Assembly (NCBI GenBank): GCA_029882975.1
Contig: JAOUJW010000030.1
Coordinates: forward strand, 1-61,566
Direction of reading: 5' to 3'
DNA length: 61,566 bases
Source: Gammaproteobacteria bacterium
GTDB taxonomy: Bacteria; Pseudomonadota; Gammaproteobacteria; SZUA-152
Shown here: one piece after another, positions 45,688 through 58,073 of the stretch
Numbering within the stretch: the first letter of the stretch is position 1
Layout of the letters: each line of letters opens with the position of its first letter
Made by a program: the position numbers and the translations under genes
Notes under the pieces: model-generated
What the model was told of the DNA's origin: nothing
The model's input: only the letters and a program-made list of their open reading frames with translations
The model's database searches: none

Positions 45688-46140
45688 TTACGGAATCTCT
45701 GCTAACCGCCAACAACTTACCCATCCATCTGCCATTTGCCGTTCAAATAATGCAAAGGGGGGCTCCTGCTCCGAATGAAAAAGATGGCTGTAGGAGCGTG
45801 AATCCGAGGAACCGAATCCGGCATGAGGAGAACGATAACCTAGCTGCTCCAATAGCCGCACCCACCGATCCTCCAACCGCAATGGGTTTTCACACCACCA
45901 AATTTCCACCATCTCACATTCTTTTCGCAGATAATCAATATGCCAATGCGGATTTTTACTTTGACCAAGATGGTGTTTCAAGCGCGCTTTTAATCCTCCC
46001 GGACCAAAAGCGCTACCTACATAAAGATAGTAACCTTTGTTAAAGGTAAGCAATCCCAGGGCACCCACCGCGATTTTGATTGATGAATCACAACGAAGGA
46101 CCAGAACATAACTGCCTTCTCCGGAACCGGGCACAGTCAA
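45688..46140 (-). CDS. DUF123 / GIY-YIG-like nuclease family protein
   Basis: The 150-residue protein has the DUF123 core: SYVLVLRCDSS, IAVGALGLLTFNKGYYLYVGSAFGPGGLKAR, and HWHIDYLR. The GYYLYVGS strand corresponds to GIY-YIG. It may act on nucleic acid, but no activity is established for this family. It is the last gene of the operon that begins with the phosphatase at 52399, four bases after the GNAT gene. Confidence 0.88.
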   Translation of the reverse strand: MTVPGSGEGSYVLVLRCDSSIKIAVGALGLLTFNKGYYLYVGSAFGPGGLKARLKHHLGQSKNPHWHIDYLRKECEMVEIWWCENPLRLEDRWVRLLEQLGYRSPHAGFGSSDSRSYSHLFHSEQEPPFALFERQMADGWVSCWRLAEIP

Positions 46141-46143
46141 ACC

Positions 46144-46599
46144 CTAATCTCCCTTCCGACGTGGTCGCTGTAAAGATTTACACATTTCGTAGTGTTGAAT
46201 TTCACCGAAGAGAACATGCGACTTTTTTACCAGAAGGTACTGTTGCTGCTGATAGAATCCTAGGGCTTTTTCCCGGGCATGCAGCAATATCTGCTCTGCA
46301 CCCTGCTCTAGCGCATGGTGTTCCAGCAGGCTTAAGATCTGCCTGCCAATTCCCTGGCCTTGATATGCGGGCAAAACAGCCATGTAGCGAATCTGCCATT
46401 CAGTTTCATTGATCGCATGAATCCGTCCCACGCCGATTGCTGAAGATTGCTGTTGTGCCAGCACATGACAGGCCAATGACTCCAATTCATCTTCGGCACT
46501 CTGCAGCGGCAGCCCCCAGGGCTTGCGCAGCATTTCCCAACGCAGCCTCAAGTAAGCCGGGTAGCTTGAATCCTTGGGAGAGATAAATAAGTAATTCAC
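46144..46599 (-). CDS. GNAT-family N-acetyltransferase
   Basis: The 151-residue protein has the acetyl-CoA site MAVLPAYQGQGIGRQIL and LLHAREKALGFYQQQQY, resembling the ElaA-like group. The substrate is unknown. It follows the lipoprotein gene after 25 bases, so it is probably co-transcribed with the lipid transporter. Confidence 0.87.
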   Translation of the reverse strand: MNYLFISPKDSSYPAYLRLRWEMLRKPWGLPLQSAEDELESLACHVLAQQQSSAIGVGRIHAINETEWQIRYMAVLPAYQGQGIGRQILSLLEHHALEQGAEQILLHAREKALGFYQQQQYLLVKKSHVLFGEIQHYEMCKSLQRPRRKGD

Positions 46600-46624
46600 C
46601 TTAAGTCAGAGCCGGATACATGGT

Positions 46625-47296
46625 TCAAAGCTTTGCGGTCGCTCCCTGTTGCGACGTAATTAAGCTGATTAGAAATCGTTGATAAATACCCACTAGGGCT
46701 TTGGAGTACGCGTGCACAGTGGCATGCATAGACTCACCCTCTACGCCTATTCTTTCCTCATAGGTTTCAATCAAAGGAGCAAAATGGGGTTCAGCCCCTG
46801 CTTCAGACTGGAATTCCAGCTCCAAACGCACTACCACCTCGGGATGACCTGCCCCCACAACACGCTCAAAACCCAACAAGCGCCCCGTCAGACTGTATTG
46901 AAACCGTTTTCCCTCGGAATATCGACCCACATGCAGGGCGACTCCGGTTGTCTGTAAATATTGCACCATATGATCCTGAATCAAGTAAACCGGATCGTTA
47001 ATCCAGTGGCGATAATAGTAACGTCTAATCTCCAAAGGTGTGGAACTGTCGGCGTACAATAAGGAACGTTCCCGGTAAATACCGCTCATATCCAAAGGAT
47101 GTACAGCCAGTTTACCTTGAAGTACCAGCGCCGCATAGTTCCCTGCGATGCGATCCGCTCCGTTAACCACTTTGTTATCCGCTCTTACTACCGGCAAGCG
47201 ATAATAATAGTCTTCCGGTACGGAACCGGCTGACATACACCCCGGTAAACCCATCACAATACAACTTAGCAGAAACATTACTGCCCATCGTCTCAT
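46625..47296 (-). CDS. ABC-transport auxiliary lipoprotein of the MCE system (PqiC-like)
   Basis: The 223-residue protein has a signal peptide with lipobox LPGC (Cys about 20) and then a domain like the ABC-type transport auxiliary component seen with MCE transporters. YYRLP near the start, RYYYRHWINDPVYLIQD, and VVVRLELEFQSE strands are visible. It overlaps the MCE gene by four bases. It probably sits in the outer membrane and takes the role that MlaC/MlaA have in E. coli. Neither mlaC nor mlaA is in this operon. Confidence 0.85.
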   Translation of the reverse strand: MRRWAVMFLLSCIVMGLPGCMSAGSVPEDYYYRLPVVRADNKVVNGADRIAGNYAALVLQGKLAVHPLDMSGIYRERSLLYADSSTPLEIRRYYYRHWINDPVYLIQDHMVQYLQTTGVALHVGRYSEGKRFQYSLTGRLLGFERVVGAGHPEVVVRLELEFQSEAGAEPHFAPLIETYEERIGVEGESMHATVHAYSKALVGIYQRFLISLITSQQGATAKL

Positions 47297-48261
47297 CGAT
47301 GCGCCTCCGCTTGGTCTGACGGAGAACTGCCACCCAATAATAGCCCCGGATTTTGACGAATCTGGCGACTGAACTCATTAATATTGCGACTTGAGGTATC
47401 CAAATTGTAAACCACGGAATCTACGGTTTTGGCGATACTGGTCACGATTTTTTTCAAGTTCTGCACAGACTTCCTTAAATCTTCCTGGTTTTCACTAACG
47501 GTACCGGCTGATTTGTCCAGCAACAAGTCCAGTTTTTGCGCACTCACCCCCAGCGACACGGACAATTCTCTTAACTGAGCACTGGCGCGGTCGGCATTCG
47601 TTAATATATTGGAAAAATGTTTTTGGTTCGTTTCACTTAAGGTCCGCGCCAAGGTATCGGCAGTTTTGTTCAACGTGGATAACAGCATATCGGTTTTTTT
47701 TACCAAGCGCGGAACTCCCCCATCCAATTCACTACCCACACTATCCAAACGTCGTGAGATTCTTTCTACGCTATAGCTGAAGTTTTGCAACATGGGTCGT
47801 ATGCCATTTTCCGAAAGATCTTTAATTTCCAAAGCCACATCGTCCATAGCATCAAACAAACCACTGCTCTTACGCGTTGCTAACATCTCCCCAGGTTGCA
47901 ATACTTCACTATCGACACCTTCGACAATGTTTATGGTTTTTTCAGATAACAATCCGGGTGAAAATATGGACGCAACGCTGTCTTTTGGAATTTGCCAATC
48001 GGAATTAACAATCAAGTCCAGCTTAAATGCCGTTTTTCCGGATACTCGTAACGGCGACACTTCGGCGACCTGCCCAATCACGTAGCCCCCATAAGTGACC
48101 GCTGTTCCGACCCCCACACCGGCCACGTCTGAATAAACTGCGGAGTAAGACCGGGTATCCATACTTCGACCCGACACCAAATACAGTGCCAGCAGCAACA
48201 CTGCCATCGTACAGACCATAAACCCGCCTACGGCCAAATAATTAATATTGTCCCTTTTCAC
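47293..48261 (-). CDS. MCE-domain phospholipid transport protein (MlaD-like)
   Basis: The protein has an N-terminal transmembrane helix (NYLAVGGFMVCTMAVLLLAL), one MCE domain (YSDVAGVGVGTAVTYGGYVIGQV, and the FSPGLLSEKTINIVEG strand), and a long helical C-terminal part. MCE rings carry lipid between membranes. I start at GTG 48261 with GGAGAG ten bases upstream (about 322 residues); a TTG at 48312 directly after the ATPase stop is the alternative. Confidence 0.9.
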   Translation of the reverse strand: MKRDNINYLAVGGFMVCTMAVLLLALYLVSGRSMDTRSYSAVYSDVAGVGVGTAVTYGGYVIGQVAEVSPLRVSGKTAFKLDLIVNSDWQIPKDSVASIFSPGLLSEKTINIVEGVDSEVLQPGEMLATRKSSGLFDAMDDVALEIKDLSENGIRPMLQNFSYSVERISRRLDSVGSELDGGVPRLVKKTDMLLSTLNKTADTLARTLSETNQKHFSNILTNADRASAQLRELSVSLGVSAQKLDLLLDKSAGTVSENQEDLRKSVQNLKKIVTSIAKTVDSVVYNLDTSSRNINEFSRQIRQNPGLLLGGSSPSDQAEAHR

Positions 48262-48313
48262 TGCTCGGTCACTCTCCGTGTTTCCTGGTCCGCTATTCGG
48301 TTTCCCGCACAAG

Positions 48314-49135
48314 TTAGCGGGTCAAACGGTGTATGTAATCTGCTGCATCAACATTCTCATTCGCAGGGGTTCGGGTCAGTAAAGCCTGAACCCGTTCATC
48401 AGGACACCGCTTTACCTCCTCTACCGTTCCGCTACAAAGAATTACACCTCTATCCAAGACGGTGATTCTATCCGCTATTTTAAAGGCACTGTCCAATTCA
48501 TGGGTAACCACGATAATGGTCATTTTCATGGCGTCACGTAATTTTAAAATCAAATCATCCAATTCGGCCGCAACCACCGGATCCAAACCGGCAGAGGGTT
48601 CATCAAAGAACAGCAATTTTGGGTCCATTATGATGGCCCGCGCCAAGGCGACTCTCTTAACCATACCGCCTGATAGCTGTGCCGGTAACAAATGCTCGTG
48701 TCCCGCCATGTTTACCACTTCCAGTTTCATACGTGCCATAATTTGCATGGTCTTTCGATCCAGATTGGTGTGTTCTCGCAAGGGCAATTCCACATTGTCC
48801 GCTACCGTCATGGAACCAAATAGAGCCCCACCTTGAAATGCCACACCCATTTGTTTGCGCAAAGCCATCATCCCTACCGCATCGAGTTTCGTAATATCTT
48901 CACCCAATAACATGATGGCTCCCGTAACCGGGGTATTCAGTCCCAACAAGTGGCGCAATAAGGTACTCTTACCGGAGCCGCTACCGCCCATAATCACCAT
49001 GACTTCACCTGTATTTACCGTCATATTGATATTGCTCAATATTTTTCGATCACCGTAGTAGGCATCCAGATGGCTGATTTGCACAGCGGCGGTCGGGGTC
49101 ATTGTTGGGGTACAAGTCACGGTATAGCGTTTCAA
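48314..49135 (-). CDS. MCE transporter ATP-binding protein (MlaF-like)
   Basis: This 273-residue ABC ATPase has Walker A GGSGSGKST, a Q-loop in VAFQGGALFG, signature LSGGMVKRVALARA, Walker B LLFFDEPSAGLDP and a switch VTHEL. The LSGGM form and neighbours place it in the MlaF group. It drives lipid movement with MlaE and MlaD. In E. coli the STAS protein MlaB binds MlaF and is needed for its activity. Here the STAS gene lies just upstream of mlaE. Confidence 0.93.
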   Translation of the reverse strand: MKRYTVTCTPTMTPTAAVQISHLDAYYGDRKILSNINMTVNTGEVMVIMGGSGSGKSTLLRHLLGLNTPVTGAIMLLGEDITKLDAVGMMALRKQMGVAFQGGALFGSMTVADNVELPLREHTNLDRKTMQIMARMKLEVVNMAGHEHLLPAQLSGGMVKRVALARAIIMDPKLLFFDEPSAGLDPVVAAELDDLILKLRDAMKMTIIVVTHELDSAFKIADRITVLDRGVILCSGTVEEVKRCPDERVQALLTRTPANENVDAADYIHRLTR

Positions 49136-49136
49136 T

Positions 49137-49925
49137 TTAGTGGTTTAGTAAATAAGTAAACATCATGTCCGCCAAGATAATACAACTGATGGACATGACC
49201 ACCGCACGCGTGGTGACCCGGCCTATGCCCTCTGCCCCGCCGCGAGCCTGAAAACCATTGCTCAATGAAACCACCGCAATCAGGAACGCAAATACGGTGC
49301 TTTTTACTAATCCTTGGAACAGATCATCCGCACTCATAATATCCAGAGTGCGTAGCGCATAAGCATATAGGCTCATATGGAGTTCCAGTGAAGTGAACAC
49401 GGCTCCGCCTAACAACCCCATGAGATCACCCAGCACAGTCAACAATGGCAACATAATCAACATGGCCAGGAAAATAGGTGCTGCCAAAAACCGCACCGGA
49501 TTGATTCCCATAACCCTTAAGGCATCAATCTCTTGAGACTCCATCATACTGCCAACACGTGCGGCAATAGCCGAACCGGAACGTCCCGCAACCAAGATGC
49601 CTACTATCAAAGGGGAAAACTCCCGAGTTACCGACAATGTTATGCCCAATATGACCTGAGACTCGGCCCCAAACACCTTTAGTGTTTCAATCCCTTGAAT
49701 TGCCAACATAACACCCACGGCGAAACACAACAAAGAGGCAATCAATATAGCATTCACGCCAATCTGCATGGCTTCGACCACCACCGTGTCCATGCGAACA
49801 CTTTGTTTTTGCAGCTTTCCCAACAACAGCCAGTACATAATTTCTGCGCTCAATGCCACTCCGTAACCGAACTCCTGCAACGCATCTATACTGCGTTGCC
49901 CCATAAGCATCAGTGCTTGCTTCAT
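49137..49925 (-). CDS. MCE transporter permease (MlaE-like)
   Basis: The 262-residue protein has five or six transmembrane helices and the conserved MlaE segments QVILGITLSVTREFSPL, AGRSGSAIAARVGSM and EIDALRVMGINP. It forms the inner-membrane channel of the lipid transporter. It begins six bases after the STAS gene. Confidence 0.94.
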   Translation of the reverse strand: MKQALMLMGQRSIDALQEFGYGVALSAEIMYWLLLGKLQKQSVRMDTVVVEAMQIGVNAILIASLLCFAVGVMLAIQGIETLKVFGAESQVILGITLSVTREFSPLIVGILVAGRSGSAIAARVGSMMESQEIDALRVMGINPVRFLAAPIFLAMLIMLPLLTVLGDLMGLLGGAVFTSLELHMSLYAYALRTLDIMSADDLFQGLVKSTVFAFLIAVVSLSNGFQARGGAEGIGRVTTRAVVMSISCIILADMMFTYLLNH

Positions 49926-49931
49926 TGCATC

Positions 49932-50279
49932 CTATCCCTTGGCAGCTGCCGCCTGGTCCGCGGTATCATAAATATCAAACACTTTATCCAAACGCGCTAA
50001 CTGCAATACCTGCAAGGCCGCGTCACTAACCCCCACTAAGGCAAAAGCGCCTTGGTGTTGATTGGCGACTTGATACGCTTCAACAAGACTCGCCACCCCT
50101 GAACTGTCGATGTAGTCCACGGCTGACAAATCCACCAATACGCGTTTGGTGTTTTTTAACAATGCCAATAAGTCCTGCCTGGCTTTAGGAGAATATTGCA
50201 AATCCACATCTCCACTGAGATAGAGAATGGAATAGGAACCCAAGGTATTTACCTTATATTGCATTGATGTCTTACCCAT
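49932..50279 (-). CDS. STAS-domain protein, MlaB-like and phosphorylatable
   Basis: The 115-residue protein is one STAS domain with VDLSAVDYIDSSGVASLVEA. The Asp-Ser-Ser-Gly sequence is the phosphorylation site of anti-sigma antagonists such as SpoIIAA, and it is kept intact. Position before mlaE and mlaF fits MlaB, whose E. coli form lacks that serine. Overlap with the kinase gene by eight bases implies coupled translation. It may act as an MlaB whose binding to MlaF, or to the kinase, depends on phosphorylation. A role as a plain sigma-factor regulator is the alternative. Confidence 0.9.
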   Translation of the reverse strand: MGKTSMQYKVNTLGSYSILYLSGDVDLQYSPKARQDLLALLKNTKRVLVDLSAVDYIDSSGVASLVEAYQVANQHQGAFALVGVSDAALQVLQLARLDKVFDIYDTADQAAAAKG

Positions 50280-50712
50280 GTTTCCGTTTCAAGGTTTTTT
50301 CCATCCTCAACACATTACCGTTTGCATCCGGTAGATGCTGTAAAACAACCGTATCCATCACTTGTCGAATAAAGTGCAATCCCAAACCACCCGGCTTGAC
50401 ATCCTCCAAGGGACGCGGTTGCAAGGAATTGGGATCGACGGGATCAGCAAAGTCGGTTAACAACACTTTGACACTGGCATCCTCCCAAAATAACTCTAAA
50501 ATCAGTTCCGGTCTGGGATGCGTTGAACAAGCATTACCATAGGCGTGTTGGATAATATTCATACTTGCTTCGTTAATGGCTAACACGATTTGATCTGTTG
50601 TTTCCTTATCGCAGCCCATGTTATGCAAACTCGCCGCCGCCGCTTCGCGTATTCGTCTTAGCTGATCAGCACCGGCACCACACCGAAACCGAAGTACGGG
50701 TTTAACTGCCAC
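50272..50712 (-). CDS. RsbW/SpoIIAB-like serine kinase
   Basis: This 146-residue GHKL ATPase has the N-box VLAINEASMNIIQHAYG and G2 box GGLGLHFIRQVMD. The G1 region (DFADPVDP) lacks the usual glycine, which weakens but does not exclude ATP binding. In partner-switch systems this kinase phosphorylates the STAS protein. It starts with GTG and overlaps the phosphatase gene by 11 bases. Confidence 0.9.
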   Translation of the reverse strand: MAVKPVLRFRCGAGADQLRRIREAAAASLHNMGCDKETTDQIVLAINEASMNIIQHAYGNACSTHPRPELILELFWEDASVKVLLTDFADPVDPNSLQPRPLEDVKPGGLGLHFIRQVMDTVVLQHLPDANGNVLRMEKTLKRKHG

Positions 50713-52399
50713 AGTTGTTCTCCAATACTATTATTGTCATGTCGTCCCGTAATCGGGTTGCAAACTCAGCACCCTCTTGCACCCGCTGGATTAAAGCCTG
50801 TAAGCGTTGCGTGGCGGGCAAGCCGGAGAATGTCCGAATGAGCTTGATGACACCCTCCACCCCCAGCATAGCGGACTCTTTATCTCCTGTTTCGGTAAAG
50901 CCGTCTGAAAAAAAATACAAAACCCCACCGTTCAAGCTCATTCGGGTTGTGTGAAACTCCACACTATTGCTAATTCCCAAGGGTGGGGTCTGGGCAGCGA
51001 GTACACGCACTTGGCCCTCCATAGGAAAAAAAATGCCTGGAGGACTGCCTGCATTAACCAGTTCCAGTTGATCACTCTGAGGATGGTATCGGCCTGCAAC
51101 CATGCTCACAAACATTCCCCGCACGGATGTTTCCACAATCTCCCGGTTAATGACCGCCATTAATTGATCCAAAGATCCAAATTGTTTGCCAAGGCAACGA
51201 AACAAACTGCTCGTTTTAGCCATCAACAAAGCCGCATTGACTCCTTTACCGGAAACATCACCCATATTGAACAGAACAGAACCGTCTTCTAAGCTGAAAA
51301 AATCAAAAAAATCACCCGACAATTCTTTTGCGGGAATGTTAACTCCGCTGACACAACAATGGTCGCCGGCAGGTAGCAGGCTTTGTTGGATCTCACGTGC
51401 CAACTCCAGTTCTTGTGCCAATTCCGTCGCCAATTGATCACGTTGCCGAATCGCCGCTTCCAGTTCCCACATTAGCTCCTGATAGGTGAGATTGGCCTCC
51501 GCCAGCTGTGAATTGGCTTGGCGCAGAATATCCTCAAAACTTTCCTGCACTGGCAGCTTCAATCCCATCATTTGTGCCACCCGTTCTGTCTGTGGTGGTA
51601 CTTGTTCCAGAATTTCATTGACACTGCCTGCATCCAGGTTTAGAAATTCTTTCAACACGCTACGACACTGCTCCAATACCTTGCCACGCTCCGCGGCAGC
51701 AAACACGGCGCACATCCAGTCGGCGCAATACAACACTTTACTGTTTACAGAAGCCTGGTGACCCAACACCTCATGATGATTCACCAGACATTCGGAAAGT
51801 TTATCCGGCAACCCCCATTGGATGGTTACCAGTTCAGCTACCTGAACGTGACTCATTCCAAACAAGCTGACTTCCTGATCAAAGCGCTGATCCGGATCGC
51901 AGGCACGCAAGCCTGGGACGTGTTGCTGCATTGTGGGATTCACATAGAACATCATGATAAACGGAAAGTCCTGCAATAAGCCGGCAGTAAAACCTTCCTC
52001 CGGATTCACGCCCACCTCCTGCGCCAAAAGACGGCAAATCGCTGCGCGCCGAACACTATCCTCCCAAAGTACGGCCGTTTGCTTCCAACTCTCAGGATCT
52101 TGTTGCAACAAGTTTTTCACTGTTAAGCACAGTACAACATTCAACAAGGAACGTTGTCCCATTAACTTAATGGCTTTGGCAACCGTGTCAATTTTTTGGG
52201 GTGTTTGAAACCAGGCTGAATTTACCAATCGGAGCAATTCCGCAGACAAGGAAGGACTGGCCTGTACCAATTGGCACAATTGCTCAAACGCCACATTGGC
52301 ATCGTCACAGGCGCGAATCAAAGCAATACTGCTTTGTGGAGGCGCAGGAATGTCAGTGGGTTTGATCCTTAATACGTCAACCCTTGGGGCTATAGCCAT
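50702..52399 (-). CDS. HDOD-SpoIIE protein phosphatase
   Basis: The protein has an N-terminal HDOD domain (about 15-215; LVNSAWFQTPQKIDTVAKAI), a coiled coil (about 295-340), and a PP2C/SpoIIE phosphatase domain (about 345-565). Metal-binding aspartates appear in LSGDFFDFF, MGDVSGKG, FSDGFTE and RLRDDMTIIVL. It should remove phosphate from the STAS protein. I start at ATG 52399 with GGAAG six bases upstream (565 residues). It heads the operon, behind a sigma-54-like promoter. Confidence 0.92.
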   Translation of the reverse strand: MAIAPRVDVLRIKPTDIPAPPQSSIALIRACDDANVAFEQLCQLVQASPSLSAELLRLVNSAWFQTPQKIDTVAKAIKLMGQRSLLNVVLCLTVKNLLQQDPESWKQTAVLWEDSVRRAAICRLLAQEVGVNPEEGFTAGLLQDFPFIMMFYVNPTMQQHVPGLRACDPDQRFDQEVSLFGMSHVQVAELVTIQWGLPDKLSECLVNHHEVLGHQASVNSKVLYCADWMCAVFAAAERGKVLEQCRSVLKEFLNLDAGSVNEILEQVPPQTERVAQMMGLKLPVQESFEDILRQANSQLAEANLTYQELMWELEAAIRQRDQLATELAQELELAREIQQSLLPAGDHCCVSGVNIPAKELSGDFFDFFSLEDGSVLFNMGDVSGKGVNAALLMAKTSSLFRCLGKQFGSLDQLMAVINREIVETSVRGMFVSMVAGRYHPQSDQLELVNAGSPPGIFFPMEGQVRVLAAQTPPLGISNSVEFHTTRMSLNGGVLYFFSDGFTETGDKESAMLGVEGVIKLIRTFSGLPATQRLQALIQRVQEGAEFATRLRDDMTIIVLENNCGS

Positions 52400-52440
52400 A
52401 TGTAGCTTCCATGTACTCAAAATCCCTAGTTCTTGTAGAA

Positions 52441-52630: not shown

Positions 52631-53191
52631 ATGCAGAACCCTCGAATTGTAACTGCGCAACTGCAACATATTGCAGACATCCTCGCCCTCTATAGCCAGG
52701 GATTCTACAACCATGGGGACCTGGGATGGAGCGAACACCGCTTGGAATACTGCATGGGATCCGAATCACACCGAATGACGGTGGCGCTGAACGCCGGCGA
52801 TGAGGTAATGGGATTTGCGTTAATGCGATTGGATGGGCAAGAAGCACAATTGGAATTGCTGGCGGTCCATCAGATGGTACGCCGCTGCGGTATAGGCAGC
52901 GTCTTACTGGGGGATATGCTCTCGATCGCGCAACGTTACCAACTGCCTCAGTTTCAGGCCAATGTAAAGGCATCTAATCTTAAGGCGATTCAGTTTTATC
53001 AGTCTCACAATTTCAGTGCCTGCCAAATCATTCCTCGGTACTATGGAGGAAAACATCACGCCCTGCGAATGGTGAAGAATCTGAGCGAGGGGGAATGCAA
53101 CACCGAACAACGAACAACGAACACCGAACACCGAACACCGAACACCGAACACCGAACACCGAACACCGAACAACACACAATACAACAGTAA
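52631..53191 (+). CDS. GNAT acetyltransferase with 7-bp-repeat tail
   Basis: The 186-residue protein has a RimI-like acetyl-CoA region (ELLAVHQMVRRCGIGSVLL and NLKAIQFYQSHNF). After residue about 156 the sequence is a low-complexity repeat of Asn-Thr-Glu-His-Arg-Thr-Pro encoded by 7-bp units. The catalytic part ends before the repeat, so slippage there would change only the tail and stop codon. The substrate is unknown. Confidence 0.82.
   Translation: MQNPRIVTAQLQHIADILALYSQGFYNHGDLGWSEHRLEYCMGSESHRMTVALNAGDEVMGFALMRLDGQEAQLELLAVHQMVRRCGIGSVLLGDMLSIAQRYQLPQFQANVKASNLKAIQFYQSHNFSACQIIPRYYGGKHHALRMVKNLSEGECNTEQRTTNTEHRTPNTEHRTPNTEQHTIQQ
53103..53172 (+). repeat. 7-bp microsatellite in the GNAT 3' end, ten copies
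   Basis: CCGAACA, or ACGAACA in two units, repeats ten times without interruption. Because seven is not a multiple of three, gain or loss of a unit shifts the frame of the last 25 to 30 codons. Confidence 0.92.
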
Positions 53192-56079: not shown

Positions 56080-57747
56080 TCAGGCTGCGCAACGGAACAC
56101 AGCTTCCACCAAATTACCGCTCCCCAGGTATTGTATGGATTCACATACATTGGAAACCAGCATTATACCTCTCCCTGAAGGTAGGTCACTGTATACCCCG
56201 GCCAAACCGCTGCTCCTGAAACCGCCACCACTGTCCTGAACACGCAAAATCACTTCATCTCCTTTGTCAGGGTCAGGTATGTAGTCTACCAACACTCTGA
56301 TCCATCCATGCTCCAATTGGCTTAGACGCTGACGCCGATTTTCATAATATTGATAAAACCCTTCTTCCGTATTTTTGTCAACACTTTCCAGTTCCAGGAC
56401 ACCATGCTCCAGAGCATTGGCATACAACTCAGACAATATGGTGTGTAAGATATCGCGATTGAAACGAATATTGGGTACAACTGCAATGGTATCGATGATT
56501 CCCGTCACCGGATCATCATTTTCTCTAAGTTCTTTTGTATTGAGCAGGAACTGGTAATTCACGGGTACATGTTTTACATATTGAGGTTTTTCGTCTATAT
56601 CGAATTCTTCCGGTAAATGTTCCATGGATATTTCCAGGAAAGAAATATCATCATCTTGATCTGTACCTTGCTTGAAGCTCTTTAAGTCTCCAAGAACTCG
56701 ATCAAAGACATCTTCATGAAACTGTTCGAAAATAGACTGCAAGCGTTGGTCACCATACATATCATCGTCAGCATTACAGGCCTCAATAATACCGTCTGTT
56801 AAAACATAAAATTTTTCATCACCATCGAGTTCAAACAATTGTACCGCCATATCAAACTCTTCGTCGGGAACAACCCCCAAAGGAAGGTGCTGCGACTGGA
56901 CTGGGATGATTTCACATTGCTTTTGTTTAACAATATAGGCGGCGGGCATGGCGCCACTCCAGACAGTCATAATCTGTTTTGCGACGTCAATTTCCACAGC
57001 AACAGCCGCCAGAAACATTTCAATAGGTAACAAATCGAATAAATGTTTATTTAACTCCCGAACAATTTCACTGATGGGAAGACCGAGCTTGGTGGTATTG
57101 TAGAATGTCTGCGCTGCCGGCACGGTACCCATGGCTGCAGATAGACCGTGTCCGGTAAAATCACCCAAAATGGCATATATACCCCCCATGGGCCGACGCG
57201 CCACAAACAAGACATCTCCGTTAAAGGCCGATTGCGGTGATATGTGGTGGCGAACGCAATCCGGATTTTGATAGCTGTGGCTCAAGGCATTATCAAAAAA
57301 GTATGTTACCAACTCCTGCTCTCGCTCCAAATGCATATTGTTCTCTAAAAGCTTTTTATTGGTATGCTGAAGTTGGATATAAAGCTCACGGATTCTACGG
57401 TGCGCAGCTATTTTTGACTCTAAATGTTCCAAATTGACGGGTTTACTAATGAAGTCATCACCGCCGGAATCCAAGGCTTTTGATAAAGTCTCTTCGGCGG
57501 TAAGGGCGGTTACAAATATGATGGGGATGTAGTTGTCACCAGACAATTGTTTAATTTTCGACGCGCAGGTTCTGCCATCCATACCAGGCATCATAATATC
57601 CATCAGGATCAAATCCACATCCTGCTCTTGTACTATCTCTATGGCTTTAGGACCGTTTTCCGCCTCAATGACATTGTATTTTTTGCTTAGTATTTTCTTG
57701 AGAAACGTTCGATTGAGGCGGGTATCATCGACAACCAGAATGTTCAT
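56080..57747 (-). CDS. REC-SpoIIE phosphatase-HATPase fusion (HsbR-like)
   Basis: The 555-residue protein fuses a receiver domain (about 1-120; VVDDTRLNRTFL, phospho-acceptor in LILMDIMMPGMDG), a coiled coil, a PP2C/SpoIIE domain (about 165-385; GDFTGHGLSAA, VLTDGIIEA, DDDISFLEI), and a GHKL kinase domain (about 400-555; LSELYANALEHGV, QDSGGGF, SGRGIMLV). Phosphatase and kinase in one chain is the layout of HsbR of Pseudomonas. It should set the phosphorylation state of the STAS protein encoded just upstream. Confidence 0.93.
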   Translation of the reverse strand: MNILVVDDTRLNRTFLKKILSKKYNVIEAENGPKAIEIVQEQDVDLILMDIMMPGMDGRTCASKIKQLSGDNYIPIIFVTALTAEETLSKALDSGGDDFISKPVNLEHLESKIAAHRRIRELYIQLQHTNKKLLENNMHLEREQELVTYFFDNALSHSYQNPDCVRHHISPQSAFNGDVLFVARRPMGGIYAILGDFTGHGLSAAMGTVPAAQTFYNTTKLGLPISEIVRELNKHLFDLLPIEMFLAAVAVEIDVAKQIMTVWSGAMPAAYIVKQKQCEIIPVQSQHLPLGVVPDEEFDMAVQLFELDGDEKFYVLTDGIIEACNADDDMYGDQRLQSIFEQFHEDVFDRVLGDLKSFKQGTDQDDDISFLEISMEHLPEEFDIDEKPQYVKHVPVNYQFLLNTKELRENDDPVTGIIDTIAVVPNIRFNRDILHTILSELYANALEHGVLELESVDKNTEEGFYQYYENRRQRLSQLEHGWIRVLVDYIPDPDKGDEVILRVQDSGGGFRSSGLAGVYSDLPSGRGIMLVSNVCESIQYLGSGNLVEAVFRCAA

Positions 57748-57767
57748 ATGGATAGTGTGTTCTTACA

Positions 57768-58073
57768 TTACTCAATGTTAAACTTTTTATCGAACCGCGC
57801 AATCATCAAAATCTTCTTCACCACGGGTTTGCAGTTTACAATTTTAATATCGTTATCATTCTTGTCCACATGTTTTTTCATATTCAACAACATTCCCAAA
57901 GCGGAGCTGTCCATGGAATCGGTACCACGTAGATCCACCACATAATCCTTGATAGCCCCATAGTCTCCAGTATAAGCATTACGAAACTCAGACAAAATGC
58001 TAAAATTGAATTTACCGTCTACCAATATAGACAGAATCTTGCCGTCATCAGATACATTGGTTCTTACACTCAT
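57768..58073 (-). CDS. STAS anti-sigma antagonist (HsbA-like)
   Basis: The 101-residue STAS protein has VVDLRGTDSMDSSALGMLLNMKK, including the phosphorylatable serine, and a C terminus like HsbA (VKKILMIARFDKKFNIE). In Pseudomonas HsbA, when unphosphorylated, binds the anti-sigma factor FlgM; when phosphorylated it binds a diguanylate cyclase. The neighbour 20 bases downstream is its likely kinase and phosphatase. Confidence 0.92.
   Translation of the reverse strand: MSVRTNVSDDGKILSILVDGKFNFSILSEFRNAYTGDYGAIKDYVVDLRGTDSMDSSALGMLLNMKKHVDKNDNDIKIVNCKPVVKKILMIARFDKKFNIE

Follow-up and report, generated by a model that had tools for sequence, protein, structure and literature searches.

Why would genes for a phosphatase, a kinase and a STAS protein of the partner-switching kind lie in one operon with the genes of an envelope lipid transporter? 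This question is raised by a 61,566 nucleotide stretch of DNA from a member of the Gammaproteobacteria (GTDB lineage SZUA-152; assembly GCA_029882975.1, contig JAOUJW010000030.1, positions 1 to 61,566), here referred to as the window. On its minus strand a compact operon (46625-52399) was identified from open reading frames (ORFs) and Pfam/NCBIfam matches, encoding a SpoIIE phosphatase, an RsbW-like kinase, a STAS protein, MlaE, MlaF, MlaD and a lipoprotein (Table 1). Comparison with related loci indicates that a partner switch on a transporter of the Mla/Mpc type is real and widely conserved. It also makes it likely that the ATPase of this transporter is gated by the switch, with the STAS protein acting as a phosphorylatable substitute for MlaB that switches MlaF.

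The linkage was examined in a class sample of 369 gammaproteobacterial genomes. The kinase was found in 61 of these at 1e-8, of which 58 were strong matches (E < 1e-15, the other three lying near 1e-9), and counts of class loci given below refer to these 58 genomes. Sixty regions were retrieved around the matches, with the weak match G101 left out, and genes were typed with profiles grown from the window and run on 62 pieces (the window, the canonical mla locus of the same genome and the 60 regions). In 52 of the 58 class loci, MlaE or MlaF followed the STAS gene on its own strand within 1.2 kb; neither was present there in five, and in one the piece had no STAS gene. A wider scan of genome_contigs using the kinase alignment gave at least 568 relatives, and among the best 80 that were kept, 70 loci were linked, nine carried kinase and STAS only and one the kinase only. 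SpoIIE was directly upstream of the kinase or fused to it in 50 of 57 class loci and in 74 of 79 genome_contigs loci that have the STAS gene. The gene order of the window was recovered across genomes, and since it is so widely recurrent, its presence in the window is not due to chance. The two sets have genomes in common and together yield 122 unique STAS sequences. Within the window's own family, the kinase was detected in one of 24 genomes (E <= 1e-15), that of the window itself, and its occurrence is therefore patchy. Record titles among the best 80 named Gammaproteobacteria, Rhodospirillales and other Alphaproteobacteria, Myxococcota and Deltaproteobacteria, the named records other than metagenome-assembled genomes (MAGs) being Telmatospirillum sp. 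J64-1, Magnetospirillum sp. UT-4 and Methylohalomonas lacus.

The enzymes of a partner switch appear to be intact. The phosphatase matched Pfam SpoIIE with 130.3 bits (cut-off 25) and possesses all four motifs that were sought (GDFFD, GDVSGKG, FSDGFTE and RDDMT). The kinase matched HATPase_c_2 with 81.1 bits (cut-off 27.4), and its residues N46, E47, N51, G107, G108 and G110 were invariant among 23 aligned sequences, with more distant relatives varying at N46. From these sequence features, the kinase is predicted to phosphorylate the STAS protein and the SpoIIE phosphatase to dephosphorylate it.

The STAS protein was claimed in the earlier note to be an MlaB, a claim that was not upheld. Against the MlaB family NF033618 it scored 32.3 bits, below the cut-off of 90, while it passed the anti-sigma antagonist family TIGR00377 (76 bits, cut-off 53.45), and in profile comparison to solved structures the top match, of the TM1442/SpoIIAA type, reached 72.3 bits versus 23.3 for MlaB. 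The predicted structure (pLDDT 84.5) has a C-terminal helix at residues 107-114 and two strand-like residues at 103-104, giving a longer, SpoIIAA-like end that differs from the topology of MlaB, which is described in the available text of PMC7367683 as a minimal STAS domain without the fifth strand and final helix. SpoIIAA/RsbV-type antagonists were matched in fold with Z of approximately 17, and MlaB with 11.2 (7cha_K, the only MlaB entry among the matches listed). A tree of 160 STAS rows was also computed (122 of the switch clade, 15 MlaB, 21 other STAS and two permease-fused), with row L049, which contains a run of X, and near-copies removed and with group labels assigned from gene context. 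In it the switch clade formed one group (95/92), separate from both MlaB and the other STAS proteins of these genomes; the MlaB rows fell short of a clean single group (2 changes). With few columns, long branches and an unsettled bootstrap, the tree is not taken to show a sister group. Grouping with sigma-factor antagonists and not with MlaB, which the earlier note had named as an outcome that would refute its reading, is in part borne out, by fold and sequence; in the tree the clade stands on its own beside MlaB. The position of the gene beside MlaF or MlaE is that of MlaB in the linked loci counted above. Judged by its sequence and model, the protein is most likely an antagonist-type STAS in the place of MlaB, outside the MlaB family.

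The motif D-S-S-G, including Ser59, was invariant in 122 of 122 unique switch-clade STAS proteins. The MlaB rows carry D-S at the DSSG columns in 15 of 15 cases. By alignment, Ser59 is equivalent to the serine of MlaB proteins and its counterpart in Escherichia coli MlaB is Thr52 (PMC7367683, PMC5016091). As far as the accessible portions of these two papers go, Thr52 lies on the binding face of MlaB near the centre of the MlaB-MlaF interface, with T52E weakening MlaF binding and T52A abolishing ATPase activity; T52A still binds, though inactive (PMC5016091).

The antagonist character of the STAS protein is also what would be expected if the partner switch were an ordinary one whose target is unlinked, such as a sigma factor, an FlgM-like protein or a diguanylate cyclase, in which case the transporter would be a merely co-transcribed effector and the STAS protein would never touch MlaF. 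The nearness of the STAS protein to SpoIIAA, RsbV and TM1442 in fold and sequence and its passing of TIGR00377 favour this explanation, and a second STAS gene paired with a receiver-SpoIIE-HATPase gene (56080-58073) demonstrates that the genome does contain such systems. We consider it unlikely nonetheless, with the distribution of MlaF arguing against it. A profile (A3) built from 18 MlaF proteins, all from linked loci, separated a switch-associated MlaF clade (E <= 1e-95) from other MlaF (near 1e-70 to 1e-79 at a looser limit), while the STAS profile (A2) matched 58 class genomes at E < 1e-19, with three more weaker at 1e-14 to 1e-18. The kinase and STAS sets were the identical 58 of 369 genomes. 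Switch-clade MlaF was found in 59 of 369, including 56 of the 58 with kinase and STAS (Fisher 5e-60, a test which counts genomes and not independent events). Canonical MlaF was present in 293 of 369, and the switch-linked clade is therefore a distinct minority. The clade without the switch was seen in three genomes (G034, in which MlaF lies 209 bases from the contig end, G088 and G256, which has an MlaF operon without the switch), and the switch without the clade in two (G334, and G236, in which the contig stops after MlaE).

The association persists when the genes are separated, contrary to what a merely co-transcribed transporter would suggest. In 15 genomes the kinase locus was not followed by Mla genes or was cut by a contig end, and in 13 of these switch-clade MlaF was found elsewhere, with none found elsewhere in G334 and G398. 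All 13 separate regions begin with MlaF in the order MlaF-MlaE-MlaD, 12 have MlaC on either strand and two have MlaA (by a single query); no match to STAS was obtained in any of the 13, so that these Mla operons with switch-clade MlaF have no other STAS nearby. In six genomes (G390, G363, G393, G394, G395 and G396) no STAS_2 match other than the switch STAS passed the Pfam cut-off, a count that relates to a single Pfam family, with G363 being 85% complete and the others unrated, and five of the six have a single MlaE, the exception being G396. In six class loci in which MlaE and MlaF are parted, it is MlaF, the protein bound by MlaB in E. coli, and not MlaE, that remains beside the STAS gene. 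In L048, L061, L066 and L152, SpoIIE-kinase-STAS is joined straight to MlaF-MlaE-short MlaD-(MlaA)-MlaC (MlaC by PF05494, MlaA by eye), and in L064, L075, L081 and L085 MlaE adjoins the STAS gene with switch-clade MlaF nearby on the opposite strand. Lastly, no sigma factor was seen among the neighbour families that occur in at least six of the 58 class loci, as judged by eye, with five non-operon families scanned with Pfam.

Fusions between phosphatase and kinase were identified 35 times, in 15 class and 20 genome_contigs loci (sets that overlap in genomes), and a fusion of STAS to MlaF was sought among the locus ORFs with none found. Two further joined frames were observed: kinase and STAS in one ORF of an alphaproteobacterial MAG (L125:1737-2498, plus strand), which may be genuinely fused or a product of assembly, and MlaE with MlaF in a single open frame of a Magnetospirillum MAG (L170:10553-12337, plus strand).

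The transporter genes were identified with varying firmness. MlaE matched PF02405 with 217.8 bits (cut-off 22.5) and TIGR00056 with 207.1 bits, slightly below the cut-off of 212.2. MlaF scored 204.7 against the NCBIfam equivalog PRK11831, below its cut-off of 441, and solved MlaF structures were the best matches of the window's MlaF family profile. Its C-terminal tail retains Tyr267 and Leu271, each present in 115 of 115 switch-clade MlaF proteins, while among 35 canonical MlaF the tyrosine was present in 27 and the leucine in 34. The corresponding Tyr261 and Leu265 of E. coli sit in the MlaB-MlaF groove, according to the available text of PMC7367683. MlaD matched PF02470 with 44.2 bits (cut-off 25.1), and its model shows a transmembrane helix, an MCE domain at high confidence and, at low confidence, a helical stretch of approximately 170 residues. 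The lipoprotein had no Pfam match at 0.001 and matched PF03886 weakly (0.053, 13.5 bits, cut-off 26). In its family PF03886 was detected in 29 of 30 members at E up to 0.1, and the family profile matched solved structures 13hr (1.9e-19), 2iqi (2.7e-15) and, weakly, PqiC 8q2c (0.01). By the sequences of its family it is probably of the ABC_trans_aux/PqiC kind, less clearly so on its own.

Taken together, these data suggest a mechanism in which the operon would encode an envelope lipid transporter (MlaE-MlaF-MlaD with a PqiC-like lipoprotein). Unphosphorylated STAS protein would occupy MlaB's place on MlaF, against the helical subdomain and the tail of the other MlaF, and with STAS docked, MlaF would assemble with MlaE and transport would be on. 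Phosphorylation of Ser59 by the RsbW-like kinase would break docking and turn transport off, and active STAS protein would be regenerated by the SpoIIE phosphatase under the control of its sensor (HDOD in the window, GAF or receiver elsewhere). The binding to MlaF, the phosphorylation, its direction (unphosphorylated being on) and the signal are what we infer here.

A number of observations weigh against such gating. G088 and G256 carry switch-clade MlaF without kinase or STAS, and G334 carries the switch without this MlaF; the MlaF of G088, which lies outside the 115, has Phe at the tail Tyr position, and two second MlaF copies fall between the groups (1e-99 and 1e-102). The cut-offs were chosen after the score gaps were visible, and the co-occurrence is partly a reflection of common descent. 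At the third anchor, Leu266 in E. coli, 105 of 115 switch-clade MlaF have Thr, and positions that separate these from the 35 canonical MlaF showed no enrichment in the helical subdomain to which STAS would bind (7 of 52 versus 28 of 186 in the core, p=1). The STAS protein itself is closer to sigma-antagonist STAS than to MlaB in profile, sequence and fold. Since E. coli MlaB T52A binds and is yet inactive, as far as described in PMC5016091, a plain on/off switch by binding may be too simple.

It is very unlikely that information flows in reverse, with the STAS protein a fixed MlaB-like subunit, the lipid load determining the amount of free STAS available to the kinase, the kinase acting on an unknown partner and the pump serving as a sensor: partner switches generally transmit signals via changed levels of free STAS protein and none of the results fixes the direction of signalling, but sensor domains were found on the phosphatase (three HDOD, six GAF and one receiver among 10 scanned), which places the input there, and among the neighbours no additional gene for an output stood out as conserved.

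The proposed gating can be compared with known systems. The arrangement resembles E. coli MlaFEDB in having MlaE, MlaF, an MCE protein and a stand-alone STAS protein with Ser/Thr at the same site, and in retaining the MlaF tail Tyr and Leu, with MlaA and MlaC present in some operon relatives. It differs in that the window STAS protein is of the antagonist type, fails the MlaB family and has a dedicated kinase and phosphatase, and in that the operon lacks MlaC, its MCE protein is long and its lipoprotein is probably PqiC-like. In the Brucella Mpc system (Mla-Pqi chimera), as far as it is described in the available text of PMC12436622, MlaE, MlaF, a long MlaD and a PqiC-like lipoprotein are combined, which probably makes it a transporter of the window's type, whereas the STAS domain is fused to the permease (MpcE) and not a separate gene, and the four-gene operon is without a kinase or phosphatase. 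The phosphatase, kinase and phosphorylatable STAS families are those of SpoIIE/SpoIIAB/SpoIIAA and RsbU/RsbW/RsbV, with an SpoIIAA-like fold, but the output in the window appears to be the ATPase of an ABC transporter and not a sigma factor. Targets other than a sigma factor are a feature shared with the partner switches HsbR/HsbA and SiaABCD, and we know of no such switch that acts on a transporter. SypE/SypA and BtrVW also belong among those with a non-sigma target (available parts of PMC4517449 and PMC8256260). Phosphorylation of E. coli MlaB at Thr52 has been put forward in two studies, as a proposal in PMC5016091 and as an open matter in PMC7367683, and Kolich et al. state that experimental evidence for it does not exist. 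No kinase or phosphatase tied to Mla was found in the open literature searched, among the matches listed. The suggestion that no system of this kind had been described stands, within that search, for the linked kinase and phosphatase and falls for the idea of a phosphoregulated MlaB, which is already in print.

Table 1. Features of the operon and adjoining genes in the window, with the basis of each assignment
Feature	Position	Strand	Basis
HDOD-SpoIIE (PP2C-type) sensor phosphatase	50702-52399	-	Pfam HDOD 1.5e-38, SpoIIE 1.1e-37
RsbW/SpoIIAB-like kinase	50272-50712	-	Pfam HATPase_c_2 9.3e-23
STAS protein, antagonist type, most likely in place of MlaB	49932-50279	-	Pfam STAS/STAS_2; predicted fold; own clade
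Codon of Ser59 (first Ser of DSSG), predicted phosphosite	50103-50105	-	Alignment; Ser in 122/122
MlaE permease	49137-49925	-	Pfam MlaE 1.7e-64
MlaF ATPase, switch-associated clade	48314-49135	-	Pfam ABC_tran 1.3e-31; solved MlaF chains top family-profile matches
MlaF C-terminal extension with Tyr267 and Leu271	48314-48400	-	Each residue 115/115 in clade
MlaD-type MCE protein, long helical tail	47293-48312	-	Pfam MlaD 2.4e-11; structure model
Outer-membrane lipoprotein, probably ABC_trans_aux/PqiC kind	46625-47296	-	Family PF03886 matches; family profile versus solved structures
GNAT	46144-46599	-	Pfam/NCBIfam
DUF123	45688-46140	-	Pfam/NCBIfam

The minus-strand order of nine genes listed in the earlier note, from the phosphatase to DUF123, was confirmed, as was the overlapping of the first three (11 nt between phosphatase and kinase and 8 nt between kinase and STAS, as called). 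Lipoprotein and MlaD overlap by 4 nt, with gaps of 6 nt between STAS and MlaE and of 1 nt each between MlaE and MlaF and between MlaF and MlaD. The phosphatase start was placed at the ATG at 52399, the ORF as listed beginning with TTG at 52420. The start codons of MlaF and MlaD as called are TTG, with MlaD residue 18 aligning with the Met of relatives; the true starts may lie further in, the two gaps then being wider. As a single run of nine genes the proposal stood for the first seven, which form the recurrent operon. GNAT and DUF123 were rejected as operon parts, each having matched one of the 62 pieces typed, namely the window's own copy, without a counterpart beside relatives, and they consequently lie outside the unit that is conserved. 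The gene upstream of the operon (52631-53191) diverges from it; this RimI-like ORF ends in a short tandem repeat (53069-53191), seen as repeated NTEHRTP in translation. A scan for promoters and terminators gave signals no more frequent than in shuffles.

The second MlaE of the window's genome was found in a canonical mla locus comprising mlaF-E-D, an outer-membrane efflux-like gene, mlaC, a 107-aa MlaB, a BolA-like gene and murA (MlaC and STAS named by Pfam, the remainder by eye). As the genome owns this separate locus, the transporter of the window is an additional one.

A second, different partner-switch set is situated on the minus strand at 56080-58073. Its STAS gene (57771-58073) is followed by a gene (56080-57747) whose product is receiver-SpoIIE-HATPase-like; MCP-signal and receiver/Hpt/EAL genes precede the set, and no Mla gene was seen beside it. 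The set resembles HsbA/HsbR.

Recurrent neighbours of the operon among the 58 class loci were an FHA protein (14), endonuclease III (11), a PP2C phosphatase (10), a CHASE2-cyclase (9) and DUF1841 (8), in the flanks of L037, L044, L047, L049, L142, L266 and L268. A link to Ser/Thr signalling is possible. In L266, the locus of G088, a DUF1841-like gene, MlaE-MlaF-MlaD-lipoprotein, FHA and PP2C (by eye) occur without the three switch genes.

In G326 (91% complete), MlaE was found once, at the head of MlaE-MlaD-MlaA-MlaC without MlaF, and MlaF once, after the switch STAS. In L042, L045 and L054 the full operon is followed by an extra MlaE-MlaD pair without MlaF, accompanied in L045 by MlaA and MlaC; sharing of MlaF is a matter of inference here because canonical MlaF is found elsewhere in these genomes. 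Separately, the genomes of L192, L195, L196 and L198 have a murA-side canonical MlaE-MlaD-MlaB without MlaC beside it, and their only MlaC found accompanies the switch-linked system. A wider proposal, tentative and on balance doubtful, is that partner switching may be a widespread control of lipid traffic in the envelope, both within the Pseudomonadota and outside them. A single phosphorylatable STAS protein with its MlaF would then be a switchable motor for two permease systems per cell, an Mpc-like bridge and an MlaE-MlaD-MlaA-MlaC pathway without its own MlaF (such as the one that stands alone in G326 or those beside the operons of L042, L045 and L054). In ordinary MlaB, the Thr/Ser would be what is left of such a switch.

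What the operon adds, in 58 of 369 genomes of the class, is that a likely substitute for MlaB, in which the residue at the place of Thr52 is invariably Ser, has a kinase and a phosphatase of its own next to it. The question of MlaB phosphorylation becomes directly testable with three small proteins. If gating by the partner switch is true, this would be an ABC transporter with its ATPase under the control of such a switch, and outer-membrane lipid traffic would gain a signal input.

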